Shown piece by piece: positions 17,086 through 64,000 of a stretch of 64,000 nucleotides of DNA (position 1 is its first letter; the number at the start of each line of letters is the position of its first letter). Origin of the DNA: a virus; the IMG/VR virus record IMGVR_UViG_3300032214_000566, positions 32,881 to 96,880 of that record. One strand, written 5' to 3'. A program made the translations under genes and the position numbers. The notes under the pieces are model-generated. The model saw only the letters and a list, made by a program, of their open reading frames with translations. It searched no databases and was not told where the DNA came from.

Positions 17086-17658
17086 TTAACAATTATAAAG
17101 AGTTATCTCCATTTCCTCATTGAATCCGAAAATACTTGGCCATAAGTACTCTATCATCCAGTTATTGTGTGAAACAATTTCTGTGGTGGTTATCGTACTT
17201 TGTAGTTTTTCGTAAAATTCTTTAGGATTTTTAAGTATTAATTCTTTAGCTAATATTGATTGTGTACCTGCAATAAATTTTATAGGCATCGTAATTTCAA
17301 TATTATTCGCCTTAGCGTATTCAATAGATTGGTTAATAATATCGTCACCATCTCTTACATATGTAATACCCAAAGGATAATATTTTAACTGACTATTAAA
17401 ATTATTTACCTTATCTAAAAATGAAGGACAATGGTCAAAGGGGTTATCTTGAGTGAAACAAACAAAATCAGGTAGGTTATCATAATTTCTTATTATATAA
17501 TCAAAATAAACAATAGCATCATAACCAACATTAGGAAAATTCAATTCGAACTTATCGTTGTTTTTAGGGTTTTTATTATATACAATGTATGGGTAATTTA
17601 AATTTTTAGTCCATTCCAAATCTTCTTGGAAATGACAAATAACAACAACTAAATTCAT
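17086..17658 (-). CDS. DUF3431-like putative glycosyltransferase
   Basis: 190 residues. The sequence follows the DUF3431 pattern: a start like VVVICHFQEDLEW, YIVYNKNP, a central NVGYDAIVYFDYIIRNYDNL with PDFVCFTQDNPFDHCP, then FIAGTQSILAKELIL, NPKEFYEKL and EYLWPSIFGF. Members are often found with polysaccharide genes and are thought to act on sugars, but the reaction is not established. It overlaps the GlcNAc-transferase-like gene by 4 bases. Confidence 0.7.
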   Translation of the reverse strand: MNLVVVICHFQEDLEWTKNLNYPYIVYNKNPKNNDKFELNFPNVGYDAIVYFDYIIRNYDNLPDFVCFTQDNPFDHCPSFLDKVNNFNSQLKYYPLGITYVRDGDDIINQSIEYAKANNIEITMPIKFIAGTQSILAKELILKNPKEFYEKLQSTITTTEIVSHNNWMIEYLWPSIFGFNEEMEITLYNC

Positions 17659-18908
17659 TTTTTAAATTTTTCTTCTATTTTATCACACCAACCTTTAGAA
17701 GTTGAAAAGGGCCATAAGACCCACGAGTGCGGTGTTTCCGCAGTTTGGAATGTTCTACATATTTCGATTTTGGTTCCTTCTGTTTCTAAGATCCTTTTAA
17801 TCTCATTTCCATCAGCATCTTGTCTAAAGATGGTCTCACCACCTTCTCTATGAAATGCAACCACCCAAAACTCATAATCATTTTCAGGTAATTGGTCTTT
17901 ACCCAAACTAAAACACTTAGTTACCTCTTTAGTGAAACTATCTATCCACTCCTCCTCATTTCGATAATCATAAGGGTTCGGAGGGTAGTTCTTTTGTAAA
18001 GTATAATCCTGAACTGACCTTTTTTCGAATAACAATCCTGAATAAATTTCATAGTCTCTTAAGGTTCTTTCAGTACCAAAACCATATTTACCAACATGAC
18101 CTTCTTGGTCTAAACCATCCATACCAAAAAGTTTTCTATTTAATAAGTGTGATGAATCATTTTTTAAATGCCATTCTTTGTCATCATCCCATTGTTTTGT
18201 TCTACCATTTCTAGTATATTCATGCCAAACCACAACTCTATGTGGATGAAATAAATCATATCCATGAGTGAAAGCCCTAACGGCTATTGATATCTCTTCT
18301 CCATGAAAGTAAAATTCAGGATTATGTTGTACTTCTCTTGAGAATTGACCTAATGTGAAACAAAAGTGGGCAGAATAAAATCTTGACGGTACGGGCATGT
18401 TTATTTCTTCCCAATTAGGTATCGTTTCAGGTAAGAAGAAAACCGCCCCCTCAGGTATAAATTTATCAAAAGCCATTCTCCAAGGTACTTGTACCCTTCC
18501 ATGAGGGTCATTTTGTGGATTATACGATGGTACGTAAGACGTTAATAAGGGTTTTGGAATACCCATATCTTTTAATTGGTTTAACATATTAATCAATGTT
18601 TCATCCCAATTTTTTTCAAATCTCATATGAGAGTCTATTTGAAGGGTGTACTCCTCGTCATTATATAATTGTTGTATTTGGTGTCTAGCCCAACATGCCC
18701 CCTTAGATTCTTGATGTGGGATATTAAGTACTTTAAACCTTTTGTCATCATCATATTCCGATAAATCATCGAAAGTATCGTCAGGGTGATATTGTTTTGC
18801 AATAGCAAAGACTAAATTTTCGGGGTATTTTGCATTTTCAATACAGCTCTTAATTGTTGGTTTTAATTCAGGATCACGGTACGATGCAATTTGGATAAAA
18901 ATCTTCAT
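17655..18908 (-). CDS. GlcNAc-transferase family protein (PF11397-like)
   Basis: 417 residues. Strong family pattern: IFIQIASYRDPELKPTIKSC at the start, ESKGACWARHQIQQLY, QIDSHMRFEKNWDETLI (the DSH site replaces a DxD), then FYFHGEEISIAVRAFTHGYD, LFHPHRVVVWHEY. This is the layout of the family that includes the Skp1 hydroxyproline GlcNAc-transferase of Dictyostelium (established for that protein, inferred here). First gene of the five-gene island and directly after the Thr-Pro fibre gene, with a TATTTAT element 39 bases upstream. Likely protein or glycan acceptors are the neighbouring fibres. Confidence 0.82.
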   Translation of the reverse strand: MKIFIQIASYRDPELKPTIKSCIENAKYPENLVFAIAKQYHPDDTFDDLSEYDDDKRFKVLNIPHQESKGACWARHQIQQLYNDEEYTLQIDSHMRFEKNWDETLINMLNQLKDMGIPKPLLTSYVPSYNPQNDPHGRVQVPWRMAFDKFIPEGAVFFLPETIPNWEEINMPVPSRFYSAHFCFTLGQFSREVQHNPEFYFHGEEISIAVRAFTHGYDLFHPHRVVVWHEYTRNGRTKQWDDDKEWHLKNDSSHLLNRKLFGMDGLDQEGHVGKYGFGTERTLRDYEIYSGLLFEKRSVQDYTLQKNYPPNPYDYRNEEEWIDSFTKEVTKCFSLGKDQLPENDYEFWVVAFHREGGETIFRQDADGNEIKRILETEGTKIEICRTFQTAETPHSWVLWPFSTSKGWCDKIEEKFKK

Positions 18909-39041: not shown

Positions 39042-40883
39042 TTATGAAAAGTCTACTGATGTTAAGTTTTTAACCCTAACTTTAATATTTTTAGCAGGGT
39101 ATCTTATTTGATATATTTGGTCCGGTTCGGCAAATATCGTATTATCAATAAGTTCAATCTGTTTTGTTGCGGTGTCCGTATATCTTTGTGATGTTTCAGA
39201 AGAAGAATATACACCACCAACTTTATTATAAACCCTAACATCAGAAAGAGTATTTACCCCATTAATATTTTGTATAAGTTGTTTAATTTCAGATACGTTA
39301 ACATTTTCACCCAATTCTCTTGTAGATGGTAACATGTAATTAGTAACACTATTAATTACTTCAGTTATAACCTGACTTTGAGATCCCGTAGAATTTAAAA
39401 CAATGAAAAATTCAAACTCAAGATCAATTACTTTAGCAACCTCAATAGAAATGTAATCATTAATCATTCTATATTTAGAAAGATATGTAGCTAAATTGGT
39501 TTTTAAATTATTTGATACCGTCTGAGTTAGTGCGCCTTCAGTATCAAATGATAAAATCTTAACTAATATTTTATTATTGAATTCAGTTATAGAAACTTTA
39601 GCAGGTGCTCCGAATCTACCCGGCATGTTATCTATTAGCGATTTGTAATCATTAATCGTTACCGCCCTTTTTTGTGCTGCAAAGTTAAATGTAACCATAT
39701 TTCTAACCTCCTCAACTGAAGGTTGATTGGCTCCACCTATCGCTGCGGTTACGTTATTAACTCTCATCGATTGAGTTACGTTACTATTGACAATATCAGA
39801 CGGTCCATTAACGGCAAAGTCGATAAGACCTACTTGGTTAATCGCACCAACGCCGACATTACTACCCAATCCACCACCAGTTCTGTATTGAACAAACAAA
39901 GTGGTGTTAGGTTTAACCGTCAAACCAAGTCCGATATTGTTTTGGTAATTTTGTAATTTTAAAGGAACTCCAACTGTTGTAAATTGTTTTAATTGCTCTT
40001 CAGGTGTTACGGTACCCGCACCAAATTGTATTTTTAAAAATCCTTCAGGAGTAAACTCAGTTATAAATCTATTCTCGGTTTTTAGATACCTACCAACTTT
40101 AACCCCTGCCTTATCAACCGGTTTAGTTGGGTCTTCAATAAATACGGTATCCTCAACTAAAGCATCTACTTCATACCATTTATCTGTTGATGTTTCAAAC
40201 TCAGTAAAGGATGGTGTTGCTTGGTAATTAGTCCCGTCTTTTTGAATAATAGACGTAACCCCTAAGACATTTTTTTCAGGTAAAAAAAAATTAAAAAATG
40301 GTGCAACGTCCGCAGATGTTACAACTTTTTTAAATACTTGTGTACTACCATTAACTACGATTTCTCTTTTAGTAATAATATAACTTGTTGGTGCCGAATT
40401 GTTTTCACTAAATTGTGGTATTTTTGTTCTATTAATAAACCCTTCTCTATTGAATTGTGATGAAAAATCTATATCATAAACAGTTTCAAACGTTGTACCC
40501 CCACCATTAAATTGTGCTCCCGATCTTAAAATACCCAAATAACGAGTATCTTCAGCATCACCATAAGCAGGAACAGTAATGGATATATCTATAACCGCCA
40601 CGGATGGTCTATAACCAGGTATTTTTAATCCGTAAGTTCTCGCAATATTAAAAATAGAAGACCTTTGTTGTGCATATTGTAACACAGTTTCTTGTACGCT
40701 TCTATCAATATGATAATTTAAGTTATCTCCAATAGCAGCATTTAAATCCATTAATACTGAAAAAACAGAAGCATCATTAAAATTTTGAATTAAATCAGGA
40801 TAATATTGTTGTGTATAATCTATCAGGTCCTGTCTTAGTCCCTCAAAATCTCTTTCAGTGTAAGATATTTTTCTATTTGCCAT
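39042..40883 (-). CDS. Baseplate wedge protein, gp6/gpJ-like
   Basis: 613 residues, close to T4 gp6 (about 660). Seen: ISYTERDFEGLRQDLIDYTQ at the N-terminus, an early helical region (LMDLNAAIGDNLNYHIDRSV), a central GGGLGSNVGVGAIN, the segment VEEVRNMVTFNFAAQKRAVT, then ITEVINSVTNYMLPS and INGVNTLSDVRVY, the pattern of the gp6/baseplate-J family. It assembles the inner ring of the contractile baseplate with gp25. The gene starts 2 bases after the gp25 stop. Confidence 0.88.
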   Translation of the reverse strand: MANRKISYTERDFEGLRQDLIDYTQQYYPDLIQNFNDASVFSVLMDLNAAIGDNLNYHIDRSVQETVLQYAQQRSSIFNIARTYGLKIPGYRPSVAVIDISITVPAYGDAEDTRYLGILRSGAQFNGGGTTFETVYDIDFSSQFNREGFINRTKIPQFSENNSAPTSYIITKREIVVNGSTQVFKKVVTSADVAPFFNFFLPEKNVLGVTSIIQKDGTNYQATPSFTEFETSTDKWYEVDALVEDTVFIEDPTKPVDKAGVKVGRYLKTENRFITEFTPEGFLKIQFGAGTVTPEEQLKQFTTVGVPLKLQNYQNNIGLGLTVKPNTTLFVQYRTGGGLGSNVGVGAINQVGLIDFAVNGPSDIVNSNVTQSMRVNNVTAAIGGANQPSVEEVRNMVTFNFAAQKRAVTINDYKSLIDNMPGRFGAPAKVSITEFNNKILVKILSFDTEGALTQTVSNNLKTNLATYLSKYRMINDYISIEVAKVIDLEFEFFIVLNSTGSQSQVITEVINSVTNYMLPSTRELGENVNVSEIKQLIQNINGVNTLSDVRVYNKVGGVYSSSETSQRYTDTATKQIELIDNTIFAEPDQIYQIRYPAKNIKVRVKNLTSVDFS

Positions 40884-50750: not shown

Positions 50751-53700
50751 TTACGGGAATAACGTGAATACCTTTTTTATGATGTTAAGGTATGCCGAAT
50801 ATGCCGAAGATAATAAATTATTATTTTGGACATTAATTAGAACATAATCTCTTATTTCTTGTGCTGTTTTCCCATACCCATAACCAGTATCCCAAGTAGA
50901 AATTATTAATTGTACAATACCTTTTTGGTATTTCTCATCTTCATCATCACCTGTGTTAATATTTTTTAAATCAACAATTAATGGTGACATGTTTTTATTT
51001 AAATTATACACCACATTAATAGGGTCTGTCAGATTATTAAACGAAAACAATGGGATTGCAGCCCCATCGACATCCGCACAAACCAACTCACTTAAAACCG
51101 GATTATCCGCAAAAACATTAGCGGCACTTATTTCAAATAAATTATTATTAATAGGTTGTAATAAATCTTCTTCATATCCGTTAGATGATCTTGTAACCGC
51201 AATTGTTGCCATCATAATCGCAACATACCTATCAATTCCAGGAATCGCATTTATTTTGTTAGCCATTTCAGAATATGTTACACGACCTCTATTCATACCA
51301 ACAAATGGTAATGTCTCATATTTAGCATCGACTAATAATTGACATTCATCCTCAGGTTTTAAAGTTGTTCCAATTGATGCGTCTTGGTCCAAACTAGTTT
51401 CTACAGGAGTAACGGTAGTCGCTGGATTTGGTGTTTGTAAAATTTCTTGCTGATATTTTTCTAAATAATTTGTTTTAATATATGTTGCCAAGCTGTTAGG
51501 TTGAGGTAATGCGTATTTTGGCATTCTATTCCCCTCAAAAGAAGTCACAAAATCAGTATCACTAATAGTATGAGATACACTACTAATTAGGTATGGTCCG
51601 TAAAATAATGGAACATGTCTTAAATTAAAATACATCATAGGTTGTATCATTACATTACCTAATGATTTAATAGTCGCATGGTACGACGCACTTTTATATA
51701 AAGAGTACATCGAAGTTGTTTGTTGAGCAATTTTATCCCCATTTACCCCGTTAGACATTTGGTCTCTAACTGCAAATGTTGCTGCAGTATTCTTCTTATC
51801 GTCCATACCTACCTCAACACTTGAGAACATGTTTTGGTTTTGTATACCAAAATCCACATTAAATCCAACAACTTTATTGGACAACGCAAAATTATATTTA
51901 GTGATGTCCGTAGGAATCCTAACCGGATTGGTTGATGGGTTTCTCAAATCAAAACTATCATCCCCATACACCACAAACGCATTATCTTTTTGTTGTGGAT
52001 GTTCAGATTCCTTACCAACATATATTAATAAAAACTTAGGTCTTGAGTCAAGATAGTTTACTTCGGTATATGTACCAAAAAGAGAATTAGGAACATCTAT
52101 TTGTTTTGGTTGTGAATTTTTAGTTGGGGACTGATTACCATAAAAATTAATGTAAGCTGGCATAGCATAAAACAACATGTTATCTTGTTTTTTCATTATA
52201 AAACCAATTACATCTAATATAGAAATGGTATTATCTCCCTTTAATATCTCAGCGATACCCATAACATCAACTTGTAATGAATTACCGACATCACCATTAG
52301 CAGTATTTTGAAAAAGAAAATCCTCAAATATTGTTCTAGTTGTTAAATCACTACCAGCAACCCATTTATCGTTAAACGCCTGAAAAGTATTGTACGTACT
52401 TAATTTTGTTACATCACCACTAACAGATGAATTAACACCTGATTGTGTTGATTTTGTTGATGGTAAATTCTTATTAGAATAGTTAGAAATCTCTAAAACC
52501 ATGTCGGCCTGTATTGCGTTTTGGTCATTTAAAAATTTATTAAATTCAGTAAAGAATGTTGTATTGGTCCACGGATTCCCATTAGTTAATGCCTTAAGTT
52601 TTTCTTTCGCATAAATTTTAATTATAGGGTAAAGAACTTTTATGTTGTCCGAAGTGAATTCTATGTTTTGTTCAATAAAAAAGTCAGTAATTGACGATCC
52701 ACTATTTGTGTACGCAGCATAATTAGAAAACCCAACATATTTTTGTAATGTTTTCCAAGCATCGGAATTATTAGTTTGACTGCTCAGTAAAGTGACATTT
52801 AAAGTATCACCAGGTAATGACCCATCAACATAAGGGTTATATGTTATCCTATCTACAGGATGTAAAGTAGTGTCATTTGAAAAACTATTAAACACTCTTC
52901 TATTAAAGTTTCCGGGATTTCCTAGTTTTAAAATACAATCAAACTTTAAAAACTCTTCCATTTTTTTAGATGCTGAGATTTGTTGAGCCTGAGCAATACT
53001 AACACAATCTTGGTTTTGTTGGTTTGTTATACCATTAGGTAAATCAGTTTCTTTTACTTTTAGTAAATTTAAAATTTGGTCCTTAAGTCTTCGTTGTTTA
53101 ATATTTTTAATCTTATTAGTATCAATATAATTTGGTGAAGTTTTCTCTCCCTTTAAAACAAGTATCTCTGATGCATCAGCATTTGGATCACAAAACCCTA
53201 AAAATGCTCTTTCAAACTCATCAAGTATGTCAGGAGTAAACACTGAAAATAATTCCGGAATATCACTATATTTACCATTAAATGATACATCATAATCAGA
53301 CGCGTATTGATCAGGTGTTGGTTTTTGTATCTTCGATAAATCATAGTACCCATAATTACTTAATCCCCATAATGGTCTAACGGACCCGTTATACATTGCA
53401 GGATTATCTTTAATATCTATTTTTATTTTACCGGTGTTAAAACATTCTAAAACCGATTGATTAAATGGGGTACCACCATTTGATGGTATGGGTATATAGA
53501 CTTTATTATTTTTATCTACGGACGCGTCTCTATCAAAAATTAAATATTGAAAATACGAATTAACCGCAATACTTCTATTTAAATCCAATGAGTCTCCACT
53601 GAATGGCATAAAATAAGATGAGTTAGTATTAGAACCAATTCTTAATTTATTTTTATCGTATGCGTCTGAAAATTCTTGCCCATTATATGTCGTAAATAAA

Positions 53701-56700
53701 TCTTTCTTAGTAAGGTACCAATGTAAATCATTAATTAATTTAGGATAAAATCCTGTATTATATGTTTCAATATATTTAACATTAGCGGGTGCTACTGTTT
53801 GTGTATCAAAAGCTTTAAAAGTACGAGTACCCCCAGTGTAGTCTTTAATTGTATACTGTGTTGAAAGATTATTTAGTGTTGGGTCATAGTATTTTTTGTA
53901 GTCAAAGTCCTCCCACACGTCATCTAATATATCAGTAACCTTATTAGAATCAATCCACGTTTTATATCTATGCCAAATAGAACCATACCTTAATATGTAT
54001 GAATAAGGCATTTGGTGTATTGCAGAAAATTTAAATAAAGTTGGAATTAATTCGTCAGTATAATCGTTAGTATCTATATTAAAGAATTCAAAGTCGCGGA
54101 AAAAGGTATTTAAATACAAATAACCTAAACTAACATACGGATTTTTTACCCCATTTTTTTCATTTTCAACACCTTTAAGTAAGGAATTAATAAAAAATGG
54201 TGTATTAAATATTGAGGTTGTTTGGTTTGGGGTAACGTTACCACTGTAATTATTATAATATAATATTGATTCACTTAATACTCTACCATTATTATCCTTC
54301 TTTTCAGTAAAAAGTTGGGATAACTCTATTCCATTTTTAACCGGAGTACTTGTATTAGGGATATTAAAAACGGTTTGATTAAAGTTTTTATAATCATATC
54401 TTTCATACAGACCGTAAAGACTTAACTTCTGTGATAATGAATTCTCATTTAACCTAGCAATTGTTTTTTTATCGTCTAAAAAAATAATAGTTCTTGTTGT
54501 GTTGTAATCATATGCTTTACCATATAAATCAATAACGTCACTAAATAATTTAGTAGATGTTTCCGTACTTTCTAAGTATGTTTTAAAATTATCAATTAAT
54601 GGAACCGCAGTATCTAAACTTATAGATCTTCCATCAATAGTATCTAAACTATATAAGCCAGATTGATTGTCCAACATATTAACAATATAATCGGTCGTAT
54701 AATTATCTCTTTCAAAGTTCCAATATTTTTGAGAAGCCCCATTATTTGAAATACTTTTCATGTACGTCTCTAATGTGGTTAAACTAATTGGCGTTGTTTT
54801 TAACTTCTCAGAAAGATTCGGATTATCTAATGCCGCTCTTCTAACATTTTGAGCCTCTAAGTCCGCAATAAATTTATCGACTTGGTCTTTTTTATAATTA
54901 CCCCTAAACAATTGAGTGTAGTGACTAGTTAAATAAACTCTCTCATATAACTCATAGAAAAATGAAATCTCACTAGGGTCCTCATAAGGTATAACCGTAA
55001 ATGGGAATTCCAATCCATTCGATGAGGCATAGTTATTTAATACCGTCGGATTAGAGTAAGAGTTTCGTCTTGCGTTAGGTGCCTTAGATACTGCAGCTTC
55101 TAAATATTTTTCAGTAAAGAATATTTCAGGCCAAACCGTTCTATCAAAACCGTTTGTTTGTGTGACATATTTAGGGTTACCTAAATATTGAACTGTATAC
55201 ATCTCTCTACCATCAGGTTGTTTTTCAAGAGTAAAGTAAGTCGGCCAAGGATAAACAACATTTTTGTTATTTTCGTTACCAACATAATTAACCAAATTCT
55301 TAGAATCAACACCAAAGTTTTTACCCGAAGGCATAATAGATGAAATTCTTTTTGGGTTATTTTTTTTACTCCAAGCATCATAATGAGTTTGGTCCATTAA
55401 CCTATAAAACGTATCGACACCAGCCATTATAACTGCAAACACATTTCTTATTGTTGGTTCAAACCCTAAACCCGCATTACTCTTAATTAATTTATCCGCC
55501 AATTGGTCGGAAAACGTTTGTTCAATTACCGTTTGTCTGGTTTTAAGAGTAGAACTCATTTTATCTAACTTATCGAAAAAACTATTTGGTACGTAATTTG
55601 TAGACCCTACGGCCAACTCTCCGTATTTAAAGAATGTTGGTATGTCATCGACAATATTTCCCGTAGCTAAATCTTTTTTCTTACCGAATAATTCAAAATC
55701 TTTTGTTATTTGTGTTTTAAATGTAATTAGCTCTGCCTCTGTTGGTACACGATTTAATCTTTTAGTTAATGTGTTTTTATAATCGGTTTCAGTTAAATTG
55801 ACATATGAAAATTGTATAATGATGTCGCTTGGCTTTAAAAAAACGGGTATCTCTTGGTTTTCAAAATTCTCATCACCTATTTTGTATGAACCGTTTTCAC
55901 CGAAAGATGCATTTTTTTTAAAGTTCTCAACACTACCTACTACCTCAGCGCTAATATCTGTTTTTAATTGTTCTCGATATTGGAAGTCAATGTTAGGTTT
56001 AAATGGATAATATATCTCGTTATCGTGTATAATATAACTATCGGTATCCAAATACGTATTTATTACTTTAGTATAGACAGTATTTTTTAATTCAGTTATT
56101 AAATTAGCATATGAGTTTATATCGTTTAAAACTGCAAAATCACCTTTTTTAATATCCTCCTGAATCGCAGTATTAAAGTTATCACACCTTAATATAAATT
56201 CTTCAATAGTTAATCTTGGAAACCCTTTCTCTATTAACCCCTTCGATTCATATATACTATAAACCTCATCCATTTTTTGTGCCCCTAATGAAGTCTGAGT
56301 TGTCGTAACATTGTTAGTACTATTTGGTGTTGCACTATTATTTGTCGGTTCGGTTCTTTCGACCACCGTAGGATACATTTTTGGAGCAACTCTAGCGTAA
56401 TCTAATAATGTATCACTTAATAATCCCGTTAATTTACCAACTAAAGTTAAATTAATATTATAGTTACCACTGTCTTGGTCAAAAGTGGCGTTAAACTTTG
56501 TAAGATTTAAAGCGTACCTTATGGCCTTACCGTAGTAACCTTTTATCGTTAAATAAAACAATGGATATGGTAAGTTAAAAAAAACAGAATAGATTGACTT
56601 CTCACCTTGTTCAAATAGTGTTCTACCCTGAACGTCGACTAATGTCATATCAACTGTTGGTACTCCATTTGCAACAACTTTAACTGTAATATTTGTAATA

Positions 56701-57137
56701 CCCAACATTTGGGTGTCAGAATAATTATTAACGTCTCTTACATTAATAGTCTTACCGTTAATATTTTTAGATGATATGCTACCTTGATTTAATCCCCCAC
56801 CTGTAGTTGAATTTAATCCTGTAATTTGGTCAGTATATGACGTGTCAAAACTATTTCTACCTCCAGGTTGTAAAAAATTAATTACCGCAGCAGGATTACT
56901 AGCATCTGTTTTTAAACTCGCAACCGTAGAATTAACAATATCTAATGTTTCCCCTACCGCAAGTTTTGTTCTTGGTATTACTTTAGTTTCTAAATTTGCG
57001 TAATACACTAAATCTTCGTGGTCGACTAATCTGTCCACCACTTTATTATTAACAACAATTTTGTTTGGGTCAATTAGAACAATGTTGTCATAATCAGTTT
57101 CAACGTAAATAGGTTGTTTTGAAAGGTTATCTGCCAT
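50751..57137 (-). CDS. Large baseplate hub-like protein
   Basis: 2128 residues. The N-terminal part contains VDVQGRTLFEQGEKSIYSVF with FNLPYPLFYLTIKGYYGKA, a segment found in large-phage baseplate proteins. Near residues ~1780-1880 there is QTTSMYSLYKSASYHATI, GNVMIQPMMYFNLRHVPLFY with GPYLISSVSH, then FEGNRMPKYALP, a layout like the gp27/GpD hub (late-control D) family. The last ~170 residues (NNNLFEISA and following) weakly resemble GH73-type cell-wall hydrolases, but a catalytic Glu is not evident. It overlaps the gp53 gene by 11 bases. Confidence 0.7.
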   Translation of the reverse strand: MADNLSKQPIYVETDYDNIVLIDPNKIVVNNKVVDRLVDHEDLVYYANLETKVIPRTKLAVGETLDIVNSTVASLKTDASNPAAVINFLQPGGRNSFDTSYTDQITGLNSTTGGGLNQGSISSKNINGKTINVRDVNNYSDTQMLGITNITVKVVANGVPTVDMTLVDVQGRTLFEQGEKSIYSVFFNLPYPLFYLTIKGYYGKAIRYALNLTKFNATFDQDSGNYNINLTLVGKLTGLLSDTLLDYARVAPKMYPTVVERTEPTNNSATPNSTNNVTTTQTSLGAQKMDEVYSIYESKGLIEKGFPRLTIEEFILRCDNFNTAIQEDIKKGDFAVLNDINSYANLITELKNTVYTKVINTYLDTDSYIIHDNEIYYPFKPNIDFQYREQLKTDISAEVVGSVENFKKNASFGENGSYKIGDENFENQEIPVFLKPSDIIIQFSYVNLTETDYKNTLTKRLNRVPTEAELITFKTQITKDFELFGKKKDLATGNIVDDIPTFFKYGELAVGSTNYVPNSFFDKLDKMSSTLKTRQTVIEQTFSDQLADKLIKSNAGLGFEPTIRNVFAVIMAGVDTFYRLMDQTHYDAWSKKNNPKRISSIMPSGKNFGVDSKNLVNYVGNENNKNVVYPWPTYFTLEKQPDGREMYTVQYLGNPKYVTQTNGFDRTVWPEIFFTEKYLEAAVSKAPNARRNSYSNPTVLNNYASSNGLEFPFTVIPYEDPSEISFFYELYERVYLTSHYTQLFRGNYKKDQVDKFIADLEAQNVRRAALDNPNLSEKLKTTPISLTTLETYMKSISNNGASQKYWNFERDNYTTDYIVNMLDNQSGLYSLDTIDGRSISLDTAVPLIDNFKTYLESTETSTKLFSDVIDLYGKAYDYNTTRTIIFLDDKKTIARLNENSLSQKLSLYGLYERYDYKNFNQTVFNIPNTSTPVKNGIELSQLFTEKKDNNGRVLSESILYYNNYSGNVTPNQTTSIFNTPFFINSLLKGVENEKNGVKNPYVSLGYLYLNTFFRDFEFFNIDTNDYTDELIPTLFKFSAIHQMPYSYILRYGSIWHRYKTWIDSNKVTDILDDVWEDFDYKKYYDPTLNNLSTQYTIKDYTGGTRTFKAFDTQTVAPANVKYIETYNTGFYPKLINDLHWYLTKKDLFTTYNGQEFSDAYDKNKLRIGSNTNSSYFMPFSGDSLDLNRSIAVNSYFQYLIFDRDASVDKNNKVYIPIPSNGGTPFNQSVLECFNTGKIKIDIKDNPAMYNGSVRPLWGLSNYGYYDLSKIQKPTPDQYASDYDVSFNGKYSDIPELFSVFTPDILDEFERAFLGFCDPNADASEILVLKGEKTSPNYIDTNKIKNIKQRRLKDQILNLLKVKETDLPNGITNQQNQDCVSIAQAQQISASKKMEEFLKFDCILKLGNPGNFNRRVFNSFSNDTTLHPVDRITYNPYVDGSLPGDTLNVTLLSSQTNNSDAWKTLQKYVGFSNYAAYTNSGSSITDFFIEQNIEFTSDNIKVLYPIIKIYAKEKLKALTNGNPWTNTTFFTEFNKFLNDQNAIQADMVLEISNYSNKNLPSTKSTQSGVNSSVSGDVTKLSTYNTFQAFNDKWVAGSDLTTRTIFEDFLFQNTANGDVGNSLQVDVMGIAEILKGDNTISILDVIGFIMKKQDNMLFYAMPAYINFYGNQSPTKNSQPKQIDVPNSLFGTYTEVNYLDSRPKFLLIYVGKESEHPQQKDNAFVVYGDDSFDLRNPSTNPVRIPTDITKYNFALSNKVVGFNVDFGIQNQNMFSSVEVGMDDKKNTAATFAVRDQMSNGVNGDKIAQQTTSMYSLYKSASYHATIKSLGNVMIQPMMYFNLRHVPLFYGPYLISSVSHTISDTDFVTSFEGNRMPKYALPQPNSLATYIKTNYLEKYQQEILQTPNPATTVTPVETSLDQDASIGTTLKPEDECQLLVDAKYETLPFVGMNRGRVTYSEMANKINAIPGIDRYVAIMMATIAVTRSSNGYEEDLLQPINNNLFEISAANVFADNPVLSELVCADVDGAAIPLFSFNNLTDPINVVYNLNKNMSPLIVDLKNINTGDDEDEKYQKGIVQLIISTWDTGYGYGKTAQEIRDYVLINVQNNNLLSSAYSAYLNIIKKVFTLFP

Positions 57138-57444
57138 AATAAAAAATATGTGTGTCTACCGCATTTTTGTAGTCTAAAAGAGCACCCAATAAAGGATAAG
57201 GAATATTAAGTATAGTTCCGTCAGGGATATTAGTTTCTAAACCACCATAAGTTGGGTTAGCCATTAATATCAACCAACCAAAATATGGTGACCCATATTT
57301 TTCATAACTAATCTTATCCAATCTACTTTGGTTAGTTCTATACACATATCTTTGGTCTGTGGTTCTAGCCGGTAATGTAACATACGGTACAACCGTTTGT
57401 ACTCCATTAACAAAAAAGTTTTGGTATCTATTATAATATTGCAT
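57127..57444 (-). CDS. Baseplate wedge protein, gp53-like (LysM-like core)
   Basis: 105 residues. The conserved core is seen: QRYVYRTNQSRLDKISYEKY, GSPYFGWLILMANP, then PDGTILNIPYP, matching gp53 and the LysM-like fold (start-up phrase, YG, WLI, N, G-x-x-L-x-I-P). In T4, gp53 is a baseplate wedge component. It lies between the two giant baseplate genes, 1 base after the larger upstream gene's stop. Confidence 0.85.
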   Translation of the reverse strand: MQYYNRYQNFFVNGVQTVVPYVTLPARTTDQRYVYRTNQSRLDKISYEKYGSPYFGWLILMANPTYGGLETNIPDGTILNIPYPLLGALLDYKNAVDTHIFYYGR

Positions 57445-57445
57445 A

Positions 57446-60400
57446 TTAATTCATTGTTTTCTTTAGGTTGAAATCGTTGCCGGTTGAATCGACAGTATCC
57501 CATAACGCCAAAAGATTAACATCATTAGGTGGCGAAACCGGAGTTTGTTTAGTTAAATCAAATAATCTTACTTTACCTTTGTTAAATGATATATATTTGT
57601 CATTTGGAAATTTAACAGAAAAATATATGTTTTTAAAATTATTAAAATTATCATCTAAAGTCTTTTTAGATTTTTCATAATTTTTATATCTTCCGTTAGG
57701 TAAATAAGTTTTTTGCGGAGTATTATTAAATGAAATACCTATTCCTTGATTTAAAATATTAATACCAATATTCTGATAAAGTAATTTTCTCCACCCCGTT
57801 TCTGATATAGCATCAGGTATTGATGTCATAATTTCATTTATGAATTTATCAGGGTCTTCTAATATTTCTTTACCGAAGATTAAGAAGAATCTCACATCTT
57901 TAGGACTATTAGAATCGATGTACGTTTCAAAATTAAAATCATCAGAATACACTTTACCAACACCTTTAGGTATTAATTGGTACTCCCCAAACTTATCATT
58001 AAGACCATTAATATCTGTTCTTATTGTTAAGAAATCATCTCTTAATTCATCATAGGTGTTGGCCGCAGTACTACCAGCAGCAATCTCTGTAGTACCAGAA
58101 ATATCATATATTACAACCCCCCCACTTTTATTTTTATACCCATCAACGTTACTTAAAATGTAATTAACTTGGTCACTATATTTTATAAATTCTAATTGAG
58201 ATTTAACTAATTTTGATGTGTTTTTCTCTAATGACTGTAAGTAGTTGTTTTTTCTACTATCAATCATTTCTTTAACTTTACGTTTAACCTTACGTATCTC
58301 ACCATTTGTTGGGAAATTTTCCTGACCTAATCCACCTAATATTGGTGATGTTTCATCCTCAACATCATCCTTAGCACCATTAAATAATTTGTCAACTCTA
58401 TCTTGGTACCCATCAGGTTTACCAAAAATATTAACATCATTAGTAATGTTACCTAACAAGTAATTAAATAAACCTGTTTTAAATTTAGGATTACTCGTAT
58501 ACAGTATTAAACCTCCCCATAATAAATCAGTCTTTAAATTTTGTAGTGTTGAATATACCCCATTAATATAATTTTCGGTTTTATCAACCATGGTATCCAT
58601 CACTTCTTTGTATCTGATTTTACCTTTTATTTGTGAGGTATTAACATCTAAATACGTATTTTCAACAACACCCAATGTAACACCACCATCATTAACCTCA
58701 GGTCTTTTTTGTGGTCCAACATCACCTATTTCATTTTTGATGTCGTCAATTAATTGTTTTTCAAATTTTGGATTTATCTCTTCAGTCTCTTCAGCCCTTT
58801 CATCATACATTTCAGTATTCGCATAATAGTTGAAGGAAAGCGCATTTTGTAATTTTGCAATTGGTTCTCGTAATCCTTGTCCTCCAATGAATTTCATTGA
58901 CATGGTTACTTCTGCAATCATAGGTTGAACCCCAATACCTTCAGGGTTTAAATCGTAAACTGCATCATCAAATTTTAAATCTAAACTTTCAAAAACAACT
59001 TTAGTATGGAAAAAGTCACCAACCCTAATAACACAAATAGGTGGTGAACCAAACGCACTATTAGTTACGTCATTATACTGTAGAGTTGTTGTATTCTGAC
59101 CTGTCTCAACCGCAGTCGGTATTGTATCACCAGGTCTCATACATTGTTGTAAGAACGTTAATCTAGCATTTAAACCTTCAGGAGTAATAGAGTGAAATAC
59201 CGGATTAAAGTTTTTAATCTTACTTCTTATTCCGTCATAAATCATAGGATTTTCTTCCCTGACCATTTCAAAATAACTACACTCACTTAAAAGTTTTCTA
59301 AGTAATCTTTTAGTTATACCATCTCTAACCTCATTTGTTAATGTTTTTTTCTGTGTTTGCTTAACAACATATGAAGATTCTGATTGTGGTTGGGTATCAT
59401 TAATGTTATTAACATCAGCACCTAGTGGGTCAATCTCCCCTTCAGGCGCCTCACTAATTTGTGTTGATGCTACCGGTGGTACTTCAGCTGGTGGGTCAAC
59501 TTTTGCAACACCAACTTTAGTTCTTCTACACATCATACCTTGTACAGACATTTTATATGTAGATTGATTATTGAAAGGTTTAGAACACTTTATATCTCTA
59601 TACCCTTCCTCATTAATTTCTTGAGTCTCTCCATTAGTTTGGGTGTTGAATAATAAAAGTTTTTTATCAATCATGTCTTTCATTTTCAATTCCCCCTCAG
59701 TATAATCAGTTATCATCTTAATAACTGAATCCGCACGTCTTTTAGAAAGACTTTGGTTATATGTTGCGGATGCCGTTGAGTTGGCGGATCCAATAATATC
59801 TAATGTTACCTTATTACCACCATCACAAAGTTTAATTACTTTTGATAGTAATTCTTTAAATGTATTATATTCACTATCTAAAAATGTAAAAACTCCACTT
59901 ATTGAATCTTTTCTGGTGTCTAAAAAATCTCCTAATCCAAAATTAGCTGGAGGATTATTTAATACGGTACCATTATAATTAAATACCTTATTTGCAGCAC
60001 CACTATTGTACGTACTTTTTAATCCGGACAATTGATTATAAAATTTTTCATACGAACTACTCGTATCGGTAGATGCTGGTATAGCATTTTCAAAAAGTAA
60101 TTGTATGTCTTGGAATTTAGCAATTTCAATATTTTCTTGTTGTGTCTGACCCGAAGCACTTCCTGTTGCATCTTGTGCAATATTTGGAGTTTCTTGAACC
60201 ACAACTTCACCAACAATATTAGGGTTAGGGACACTTGGAATTAACTCAGTTACATTACTAACCGTTTCAATTACATCATATATGTCGGTTAAACTAAATG
60301 ATTTATATTTTTTTAATAAATCATAAATGTCGTATTCAGTACATCCCGCAATGAATGAGTCGATTACCTTAGTCGCCACCGATGTGTTTTCTTTCGCTAA

Positions 60401-63400
60401 TTCTTTATTAACCAAAACATTCATTATTGATGGGTGGTCAACAATTATTTTCCATTTTAAAGTCCCAGTTCTTTCAGTGTTTTGGTAAGTATATATTGGT
60501 TCAGGTCTCCCTAAAAAAACATTGTCTTTCCATGATGTTCTAACATTATCATCAAAACTTAGTTCATATGGTGGGAACCACATAACTCTACCTCCGTTTG
60601 GACCTATTTCACAAGCAGGTAAACTATCAACCGTAAATCCTTTTTTACTTGATGTTCTCCAAGCTAAGTTCTCAATAGAGAACATATATTTTTTAACCTT
60701 CCCATCTTTTCCAATATTTGTGGAATCTTCACCATACATTGGTGCAATGTTCAAGTTATACGTCGCATCTAAAACGGAATACGTAGCACCTCTTATATTA
60801 CCTTTTCCATTATTTAATTTATTCTTTTGTAATTGTTTGTATGTACTATATGGTCTATCCTTGGTAAATAAACGACAATATTCATAACCTTGTACACTAC
60901 TCACAGGTGCAGTTCCACTCTGTACTGAAGTTGGTGTCACGTATCTAAAAACTCTAGAACCTTTGGTCATCTCTTGGTACCCGTCATTAAATACTTTACT
61001 AACTTGGTTAATCGCATTACCTACATGGTTAGGGTTAGATGATCTGGCACCTGCGTCAATTAATTTTTGAGTTATATCGAGTATCGACCCATCTGTAAGT
61101 GACAACGCTGAGGATTTACTATTATTAAACGCCTGTTGTAATATTGTATCAAACACAACATCAGTCGAGTTAACTATCTTATTGTTAAACCCAACAAATA
61201 AACCAGGTTTAATAAAAGAAGTCTCACTTGTTGTCCATGTGAAATTACCTATAATACTTGAATTACCAACAACCCCTAAAGTGTCTAAAGACCCGTTGTA
61301 ATAATTTCTACTATTTAAACCGAACAGCCTTTTATTAACATCATTACCCTCATACTCCTTACCTATCGCACCATAGTCAAAAACGGGACCGTTATTAGGT
61401 TTTCCGTCTCTTCCTTTAGGTTGGTCAAGTTTTGGACTAACAACATCTCTTATGAAATTTTTAGTGTTACCAACATAAAAAATAGGTTTAGGTGACGATA
61501 AATTAGGACTAACTAAAGAATCTAAATTATAATCAGGTCGATATGAATTATAAAATAACATATCAAACAACAATGACCTTGTTGCTCTTGATGTGTTTGC
61601 TAATAGTCTTTCAGACCCCGTATCAATATTCGCGGATAATAAATTATTTACAAGGTTACCCACAGCACCTGCAACAGCACCAATAGGATTTGCAAGCATT
61701 TGACTACCAAAGTTTTTATCAGGATAATCAAAATATTCACCAGGGATTATAGAATATGGTGAATAAAGACCTGATAGTCTAGCGGTAAACCCTAATACAT
61801 CCCCAACAATAGTTGATGGTGATGTTATTTGATAATTTTTTTGAATAAGGGGAACGTTATTAGTTACAACTCCTAAAATATCAAATGGGTCTATTGACGG
61901 ACTTGGTCCTATACCTCCTGATATTGTTGATACCGATGAATTGGATAAAATCGATCTACCTAATGTTTGTTGGTATAACTCATAAGCAACTCTCGTTTTA
62001 AATTCTTTTTGTAGTTGTTTTGCTGCGATTTTAGCCAAATTAGAATCCTGACTTAAACTTCCTTCGGTACCATTTGGATTGTCGCTATTTAGAATGTTAA
62101 TAGGACTGTAAAACGATGGAACAAATGAGAACGTAGTATCACTATTAGAATACGGTCTATTTAAACTATCAGGAAATATCTCATCAATAACTAATGGGTC
62201 ATACGACCCTTCACCCGTATTATAAAGATTTTTACCATAGTTATATGATTGAGATTGTTCTGTTGTTTTTCCAGGTTGTGATGCGGTAAAATCATATTCA
62301 CCCTTATTAGCTTGTGTTTGTGTATCTCTATTTGGGACGACAACGTCAGGTATAATAACCGGTTGGTACGGGTTTTTAACTACCGTATTTTTAAGTCTTT
62401 TATCACCAATCTGCTCAAGTTCACTATTATTACCAGAGTTCTCGGTTGGTTCGTATGGTCCTGCATTTGCACCAAGTGGGTTATCTTTATTAATATTAAT
62501 AACCGCACCGTAGTTAGTTACACTACTACCAAGACCATATTTATTTTTACCGTATAAAAATTTACCACGAACATTACCAACACTATTTAACTCACTATTA
62601 GCAGCATCACTAGCATCATCATATTCCCCATAGTTAGAAACATTTAAAGTTAGGGTAGGGAATAATTTTGAATCACCAAAACCCGTAGATACTGATTCAG
62701 GGTTATATTTGTTTAATACCCGTAGAATACTTTCTTGTGCGTCTCCTTTTAATTCTAATTCACTAGAAACCGCATCGGCAGGTCCGTAGTTACCCTCATT
62801 GGCTTTAGTTTGGAAATTTAGGTTAGGAGTAACTGAAGTATTACTTTGTGTCCCTTGTGGTCCATATTGATTAATAACAATTTGAGTTTCTTTTGAAGAT
62901 ATACCTATCTTTTCTAAATCACTACCTAAAGTATCTATAAAGTCATAGTGACCTTCGTTAGGTTTTGTTTGGTTATTAACATTAGGGTTAACAACATTTC
63001 TACTATCTGATTGGTCCGGACCATATTGGTTTTTAACAATCAGTTCGTTTTCTTTAACGTCACCGATAACTTCTAAATCACTTCCAAAAGTTTTTTCAAA
63101 TCCATATAGACCTTCGTTAGTACTTTTGTTTGTATTTTTATTGATGTTAACAGGATTACCAAAAGAATTAGCAAATTGGGTTGGTCCATATATGTTCTGA
63201 ACATATAATAGTTTTTCGGTGTTATCACCAATAACCTCTAATTTTGACCCTTCGGTGTTTTTAAAACCATATAAACCACCATTAGTCTCGGTACCTTTAT
63301 TAATGTTTATTTGAATAACATTACCGAATGTACCGCCAGGATTAAATTTATTTTGTTTTATTAATTTTTCTTCTTGTTTTTTCTGTTCAACACTGATATC

Positions 63401-63601: not shown

Positions 63602-64000
63602 TTACCTTGTTTGTAATCTTGTTTTAGATTTTGATAATAAATCTTTTTTATCGAACACATCCATAATTTTTTCAGTGAGTTGTCTCTTAAACTCTCCGTC
63701 TCTTGATAGTAAGTCGGATAATGGACTATTAGGAATTCCCTTAATATTTAAATCTACGGTTATGTTAAAATTGTTATCTATTGTTTGTGATATATTTTGA
63801 GATGTTTCTTGTTTAGATGTAATTGTTTGTGTTGGTAATGTTTTCGGTTCATTATTTTTAAACGATATCTCAGTTGGAGTCGACGACTCTAAACTTTTAA
63901 CTTTTAAATAACTTTCTTTTAAAACTGATAATTTTTTATCTAAATCGGGAGCAAATACTCCTTTATCCTCATCTATAAAATTAAACATCTGACCCTTACC
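63602..64000 (-). CDS. C-terminal end of a probable tape-measure/tail protein (partial)
   Basis: The reading frame is open to the window edge (four codons precede the first Met at 63988), so the gene probably begins outside. The visible 132 residues include charged helix, a Thr/Gln-rich linker, then NITVDLNIKGIP with LLSRDGEFKRQLTEKIMDVF, a strand-helix ending of a type common in tape-measure and large tail proteins. Location just upstream of the baseplate genes fits the T4/P2 order. The assignment as tape-measure is inference. Confidence 0.5.
   Translation of the reverse strand, partial: GKGQMFNFIDEDKGVFAPDLDKKLSVLKESYLKVKSLESSTPTEISFKNNEPKTLPTQTITSKQETSQNISQTIDNNFNITVDLNIKGIPNSPLSDLLSRDGEFKRQLTEKIMDVFDKKDLLSKSKTRLQTR

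Follow-up and report, generated by a model that had tools for sequence, protein, structure and literature searches.

The window analysed here, a 64,000-nucleotide stretch of viral DNA, is part of the 96,880-bp IMG/VR record of a T4-like myovirus and encodes a giant 2036-aa tail protein, P0001 (57446..63556, minus strand), that carries a complete OmpA-type fold as an insert. The fold is kept and under selection, whereas only one of the two residues that bind diaminopimelate is, which makes a canonical wall anchor unlikely. We lean towards a reading in which the insert would act within the virion, as a protein-contact module of a large central baseplate protein. The candidacy of P0001 as a baseplate centre piece comes from the open reading frame itself, from 51 aligned homologues of at least 1250 aa and from tail-module synteny.

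The OmpA-type fold and its family

The initial annotation had read OmpA-type motifs in this protein, and the translated open reading frame confirms them, with LDIIGSANSTAS, YNQSLSKRRADSVIKMI, GSANSTAS and YNQSLSKRRADSV all found where they had been placed. The domain to which they belong is real and longer than first described, as Pfam, a PDB profile search, structure prediction and structural neighbors agree: its location was correct, but the extent originally given (residues ~1225-1330) was too short, the complete domain spanning residues ~1150-1352 (59501..60109, minus). OmpA is the sole Pfam family matched, in 16 of 27 family members, and it matches the whole 2036-aa protein at E=2.9e-4 and the isolated domain at E=1.9e-5; these E-values are significant, although the PF00691 scores for the domain, 25.4 and 26.4 bits, lie under the curated cut-off of 27.2. 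In the PDB, the family profile matched solely chains of the OmpA, Pal, PorE, YfiB and OprF types at E<=0.01 (best E-value 5.4e-7). AlphaFold modeled residues 1136-1352 with a mean pLDDT of 90.5 and a pTM of 0.88, and Foldseek matched the domain model to OmpA structures with a probability of ~1, the top neighbors being OmpA-type (OmpA, PorE) and including 3TD4 with bound diaminopimelate. The comparison of a predicted structure with OmpA, proposed earlier as a check, thus returned an OmpA-type fold, and the predicted alpha/beta architecture matches that of solved OmpA domains. Chance similarity to OmpA is ruled out by the PDB profile, the AlphaFold model and the Foldseek matches. A viral structure library yielded one strong match, to the uncharacterized A0A6J5L6C4_2 (TM 0.60 by query length).

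Set beside the OmpA/Pal/MotB C-terminal domain (PF00691; A. baumannii OmpA 3TD4), the phage domain has the same predicted fold and order of strands and helices, and it shares the YN..LS.RR hallmark, the terminal RR motif and the Arg of the diaminopimelate site. It differs in its missing Asp, in its location inside a tail protein and in its Pfam score below the curated cut-off. Two cysteines lie within the domain: C1324 (59585..59587, minus), conserved in 49 of 51 sequences with two gaps, and C1343 (59528..59530, minus), which adjoins the terminal CRR motif and is the likely disulfide partner of C1324; both are present in 48 of the 51. Two further cysteines, C982 (60611-60613) and C1426 (59279-59281), belong to the core of the protein and stand on either side of the insert. 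Both are Cys in 46 sequences and both are changed in three (S/A in L020 and L072, A/G in L030), and the C1426 column is gapped in two more; in the aligned columns of three distant relatives, L092 and L094 are without both and L093 keeps only the first. This covariation of the pairs suggests two disulfides, one that would lie inside the OmpA domain and one that would pin the halves of the core around the insert.

Our scan of viral metagenome contigs found 75 loci related to P0001, and the alignment, which counts the window copy among its members, comprises 51 distinct proteins no shorter than 1250 aa. Against cultured phages, tblastn found no relative of the window protein (50,697 phage records) and no match for its relatives L045, L092 and L094, and a search with just the L045 OmpA domain yielded matches only at E>=3, mostly to fibritin. 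Family contigs were found in a Prochlorococcus single-cell genome and in Bacteroidota MAGs, and among them the distant contigs L092-L094, from that single-cell genome and two of the MAGs, carry an OmpA-like insert at the same place, which indicates that the insert is old; these inserts have the Arg and, as judged by eye, no Asp at the corresponding place. In L020 and L072, which share 52% identity with the window protein outside the domain, the OmpA domain is cleanly absent with its flanks intact, and no OmpA match was found anywhere in the whole 281-kb record of L020. Since both nest beside the OmpA-bearing L010 (clade support 100/100), the absence is best read as a loss, and the domain is dispensable in this one clade. 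It is degenerate in L014 and L051. Among close relatives of the window copy its dN/dS is 0.05-0.12, so the domain is under purifying selection; it is constrained, yet evolves faster than the conserved core.

The diaminopimelate site

In A. baumannii OmpA, diaminopimelate is bound by an Asp and an Arg (PMC12108004, PMC5974059). The equivalent of Asp271 in the window domain is N1259 (59780..59782, minus) and that of Arg286 is R1274 (59735..59737, minus), in keeping with the earlier observation that the Arg is kept and the Asp replaced; in terms of the motifs expected for peptidoglycan binding, the Asp of GHTD is an Asn here and the Arg of LSxxRA is R1274. The same pattern runs through the family. 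Among the 51 aligned proteins the Asp site holds S in 32, N in 13, Y in one and D in one, with four gaps, and the single D (L010) hinges on how a one-residue insertion is aligned. The Asp is thus replaced in 46 of the 47 homologues with a residue at its site, and the Arg is present in 47 of the 47 with a residue at its own, counts that are not independent because the homologues share ancestry. As a bacterial yardstick, both residues occur in 19 of 19 readable OmpA domains from two Bacteroidota genomes (20 OmpA stretches, of which 18 were scored by pattern and L118 by eye, L110 being unreadable as translated). The pocket loop (GSASS/GSANS) is conserved in the family together with the Arg; L004 is missing five residues of this loop.

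A phage-borne OmpA domain without the site Asp likewise occurs in Cellulophaga phage phi17:2, whose OmpA protein R9ZWT8 has SNVG there. Unlike the window domain it stands alone, has a signal-like N terminus and lies outside any baseplate protein. It corresponds to L096, at 129783-130025 of NC_021798.1.

The tail module and the conserved core

Gene order and relatives uphold the initial assignment of P0001 as a tail or baseplate protein. The record encodes UvsX-like, DnaB-like helicase, single-strand binding, SbcC/D-like, primase and ribonucleotide reductase proteins, along with a gp6-like baseplate wedge protein (39042..40883, minus; phrog_219, E=1.8e-22) whose relatives include those of Flavobacterium and Microcystis phages. 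The tail module runs in the order sheath, tube, hub, ~640-aa ORF, OmpA-bearing giant, LysM/gp53-like protein and giant hub candidate. The ~640-aa ORF, whose end lies at 63602..64000 (minus) where it is cut by the contig end, is a tape-measure candidate by its position, through synteny with L001, L002 and L004, and has a weak PHROG match of unknown function. On the other side of P0001 lie a 105-aa gp53/LysM-like baseplate wedge protein (57127..57444, minus; phrog_7145 baseplate wedge subunit, E=4e-5, with weak Phage_gp53 and Phage_tail_X matches) and a giant 2128-aa protein (50751..57137, minus), placed as a hub by position, for which Pfam and PHROG gave no informative family match. The immuto counterpart of the latter carries a VanY carboxypeptidase domain. 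In L004 the order reads tail sheath, 293 aa, tail tube, hub, 652 aa, the 2008-aa homologue, a 105-aa gp53-like wedge and 2137 aa; in Flavobacterium phage immuto it reads sheath, completion protein, hub subunit, tape measure, gp235 (716 aa), a gp53-like protein and the 938-aa VanY protein. Elsewhere in the window, a 417-aa glycosyltransferase (17655-18908, minus) has counterparts at 43-46% identity in Xanthomonas phage XacN1 and in two jumbo phages of Stenotrophomonas, with no match in the other cultured phages of the collection.

The OmpA domain interrupts a conserved core. Its first half, residues ~952-1060 (60377..60703, minus; WFPPY...FLGRPEPIYTY...VDHPS), matched immuto gp235 and a 2255-aa protein of Microcystis phage Mel-JY01 in hhalign with a probability of 95.7%, and a composite of both halves with the insert columns removed matched with a probability of 92.6%, in each case with shallow profiles. 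The second half, residues ~1445-1580 (58817..59224, minus; HSITPEGLNARLTFLQQC...FIGG), matches these cultured-phage counterparts within the composite core, and gave no hhalign match to them by itself. The window protein is likely the counterpart of immuto gp235 and hence a candidate for the centre piece of the baseplate; no OmpA match occurs in either counterpart or in the whole records of immuto and Mel-JY01. Upstream of the core, residues ~92-470 (62147..63283, minus) form diverged repeats of ~53-55 aa. In the Microcystis phage counterpart (L090:4572-11339), the core is preceded by a long array of repeats of 44 aa.

Tube, hub and wedges are connected through the centre piece in Milano and the pyocin (PMC10811340). 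The gene for P0001 has the same position as that of this centre piece or Ripcord protein (Milano gp25, pyocin PA0626), between the candidate tape measure and the hub and beside the LysM/gp53 protein. The window protein differs in being ~5x larger and in its OmpA insert and N-terminal repeats, and we liken the two by position rather than by direct homology. The conserved core, for which there is no Pfam or PHROG family, is probably a tube-initiator or centre-piece domain; the evidence for a tube-like identity is synteny, a match between profiles of low diversity and a weak Foldseek hit on the cyanophage A-1(L) baseplate initiators (8kea, E=0.067). Because the AlphaFold model of the core that gave this hit is too poor (mean pLDDT 59.7) to assign a fold firmly and the hit, its best to a phage tail, is weak, we infer rather than establish that the window protein is the counterpart of the Milano and pyocin centre piece.

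Possible roles of the domain

Of the roles that might be assigned to the insert, a contact module inside the virion seems to us somewhat probable. P0001 would be a large central protein of a T4-like baseplate, its gene lying between those of the tape-measure candidate and the gp53/LysM-like wedge. Its core (tube initiator or centre piece) would carry an ancient insert in which the OmpA fold is complete but the residue pair that grips diaminopimelate is not. The insert would tie the start of the tube to the wedges, and its conserved pocket loop and Arg might hold an acidic group (carboxylate) of a partner protein. Given that the wall-gripping residue is missing in nearly all relatives, the domain is likelier to have a structural role in the tail tip than to act as a wall anchor. 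There is a precedent in the gp53/BW4 LysM wedge protein of T4, pyocin and Milano, likewise a wall-binding fold used as a baseplate contact module, which serves as wedge 'glue' in contractile tails (PMC10811340), and the gp53-like gene of the window adjoins the OmpA-bearing gene. However, the gp53/BW4 fold is a different one, and for the OmpA domain we infer the contact role, as we do its ligand and the centre-piece identity of the protein. Retention of the Arg and of the loop could, moreover, equally mean that a wall ligand is still bound.

The initial annotation had proposed just such a role, a canonical peptidoglycan anchor by which the baseplate would dock on the wall of the host. The OmpA fold and the retained Arg are what this proposal would predict, but it fares badly against the replacement of the Asp in 46 of 47 homologues, the trimmed loop of L004 and the loss of the domain from one clade, and we hold it to be highly improbable. 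If the host is Gram-negative, the baseplate also lies outside the outer membrane before contraction and cannot reach peptidoglycan. That barrier would be crossed if the domain travels at the tip of the tube: on sheath contraction it would pass the outer membrane, and the Asp-less pocket, binding in an altered way through the Arg and the GSASS/GSANS loop, would recognize peptidoglycan or a periplasmic protein, making the domain a wall sensor or anchor that holds the tip or guides a wall-cutting hub. Conservation of the loop and Arg is consistent with this, as is the VanY carboxypeptidase encoded in immuto two genes downstream, which leads one to expect that the tip processes the wall, and the moving pyocin tube takes the centre piece out of the baseplate with it (PMC10811340). 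Nevertheless, the absent Asp, the shortened L004 loop and the domain-free L020/L072 clade argue against periplasmic docking too, and driving six subunits of ~2000 aa through the baseplate would presumably be sterically demanding; we therefore regard it as unlikely.

Loss in L020/L072, degeneration in L014/L051 and evolution faster than that of the core would also fit a relic, an acquired OmpA domain tolerated without function. Such a relic would not be expected to show a dN/dS of 0.05-0.12, nor hallmark residues that are near-universal over large divergence, and we think this account quite unlikely. OmpA-fold domains do bind proteins, and the domain could instead mimic a host component, binding during entry an envelope protein whose usual partner is OmpA or Pal, for instance a component of Tol-Pal. 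PorE, Pal and YfiB are among its structural matches, and the Foldseek lists include 2hqs and 5eb1, which are complexes of an OmpA-fold domain with a protein; the idea nevertheless lacks specific support and sits poorly with a domain fused within a core baseplate protein, and we consider it very unlikely.

An OmpA fold also serves a contractile machine in the type VI secretion system, where it forms the peptidoglycan-binding domain of TagL/TssL (PMC8253398), and Foldseek matched the phage domain to 5m38 (TagL/TssL-type). TagL, however, is the anchor of the membrane complex in the cell that fires, whereas the phage domain belongs to the tail and is without the Asp. Our literature search turned up no description of a phage baseplate with an OmpA domain, and papers on Leptospira and Tenacibaculum proved to have no bearing on the matter. 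As a caution for annotation, an OmpA match in a phage should not automatically be called a peptidoglycan anchor. The contact-module reading raises the question of what the Asp-less pocket holds and, if it is true, the OmpA fold in the baseplate would be a second wall-binding fold, after LysM, to be reused in contractile tails.
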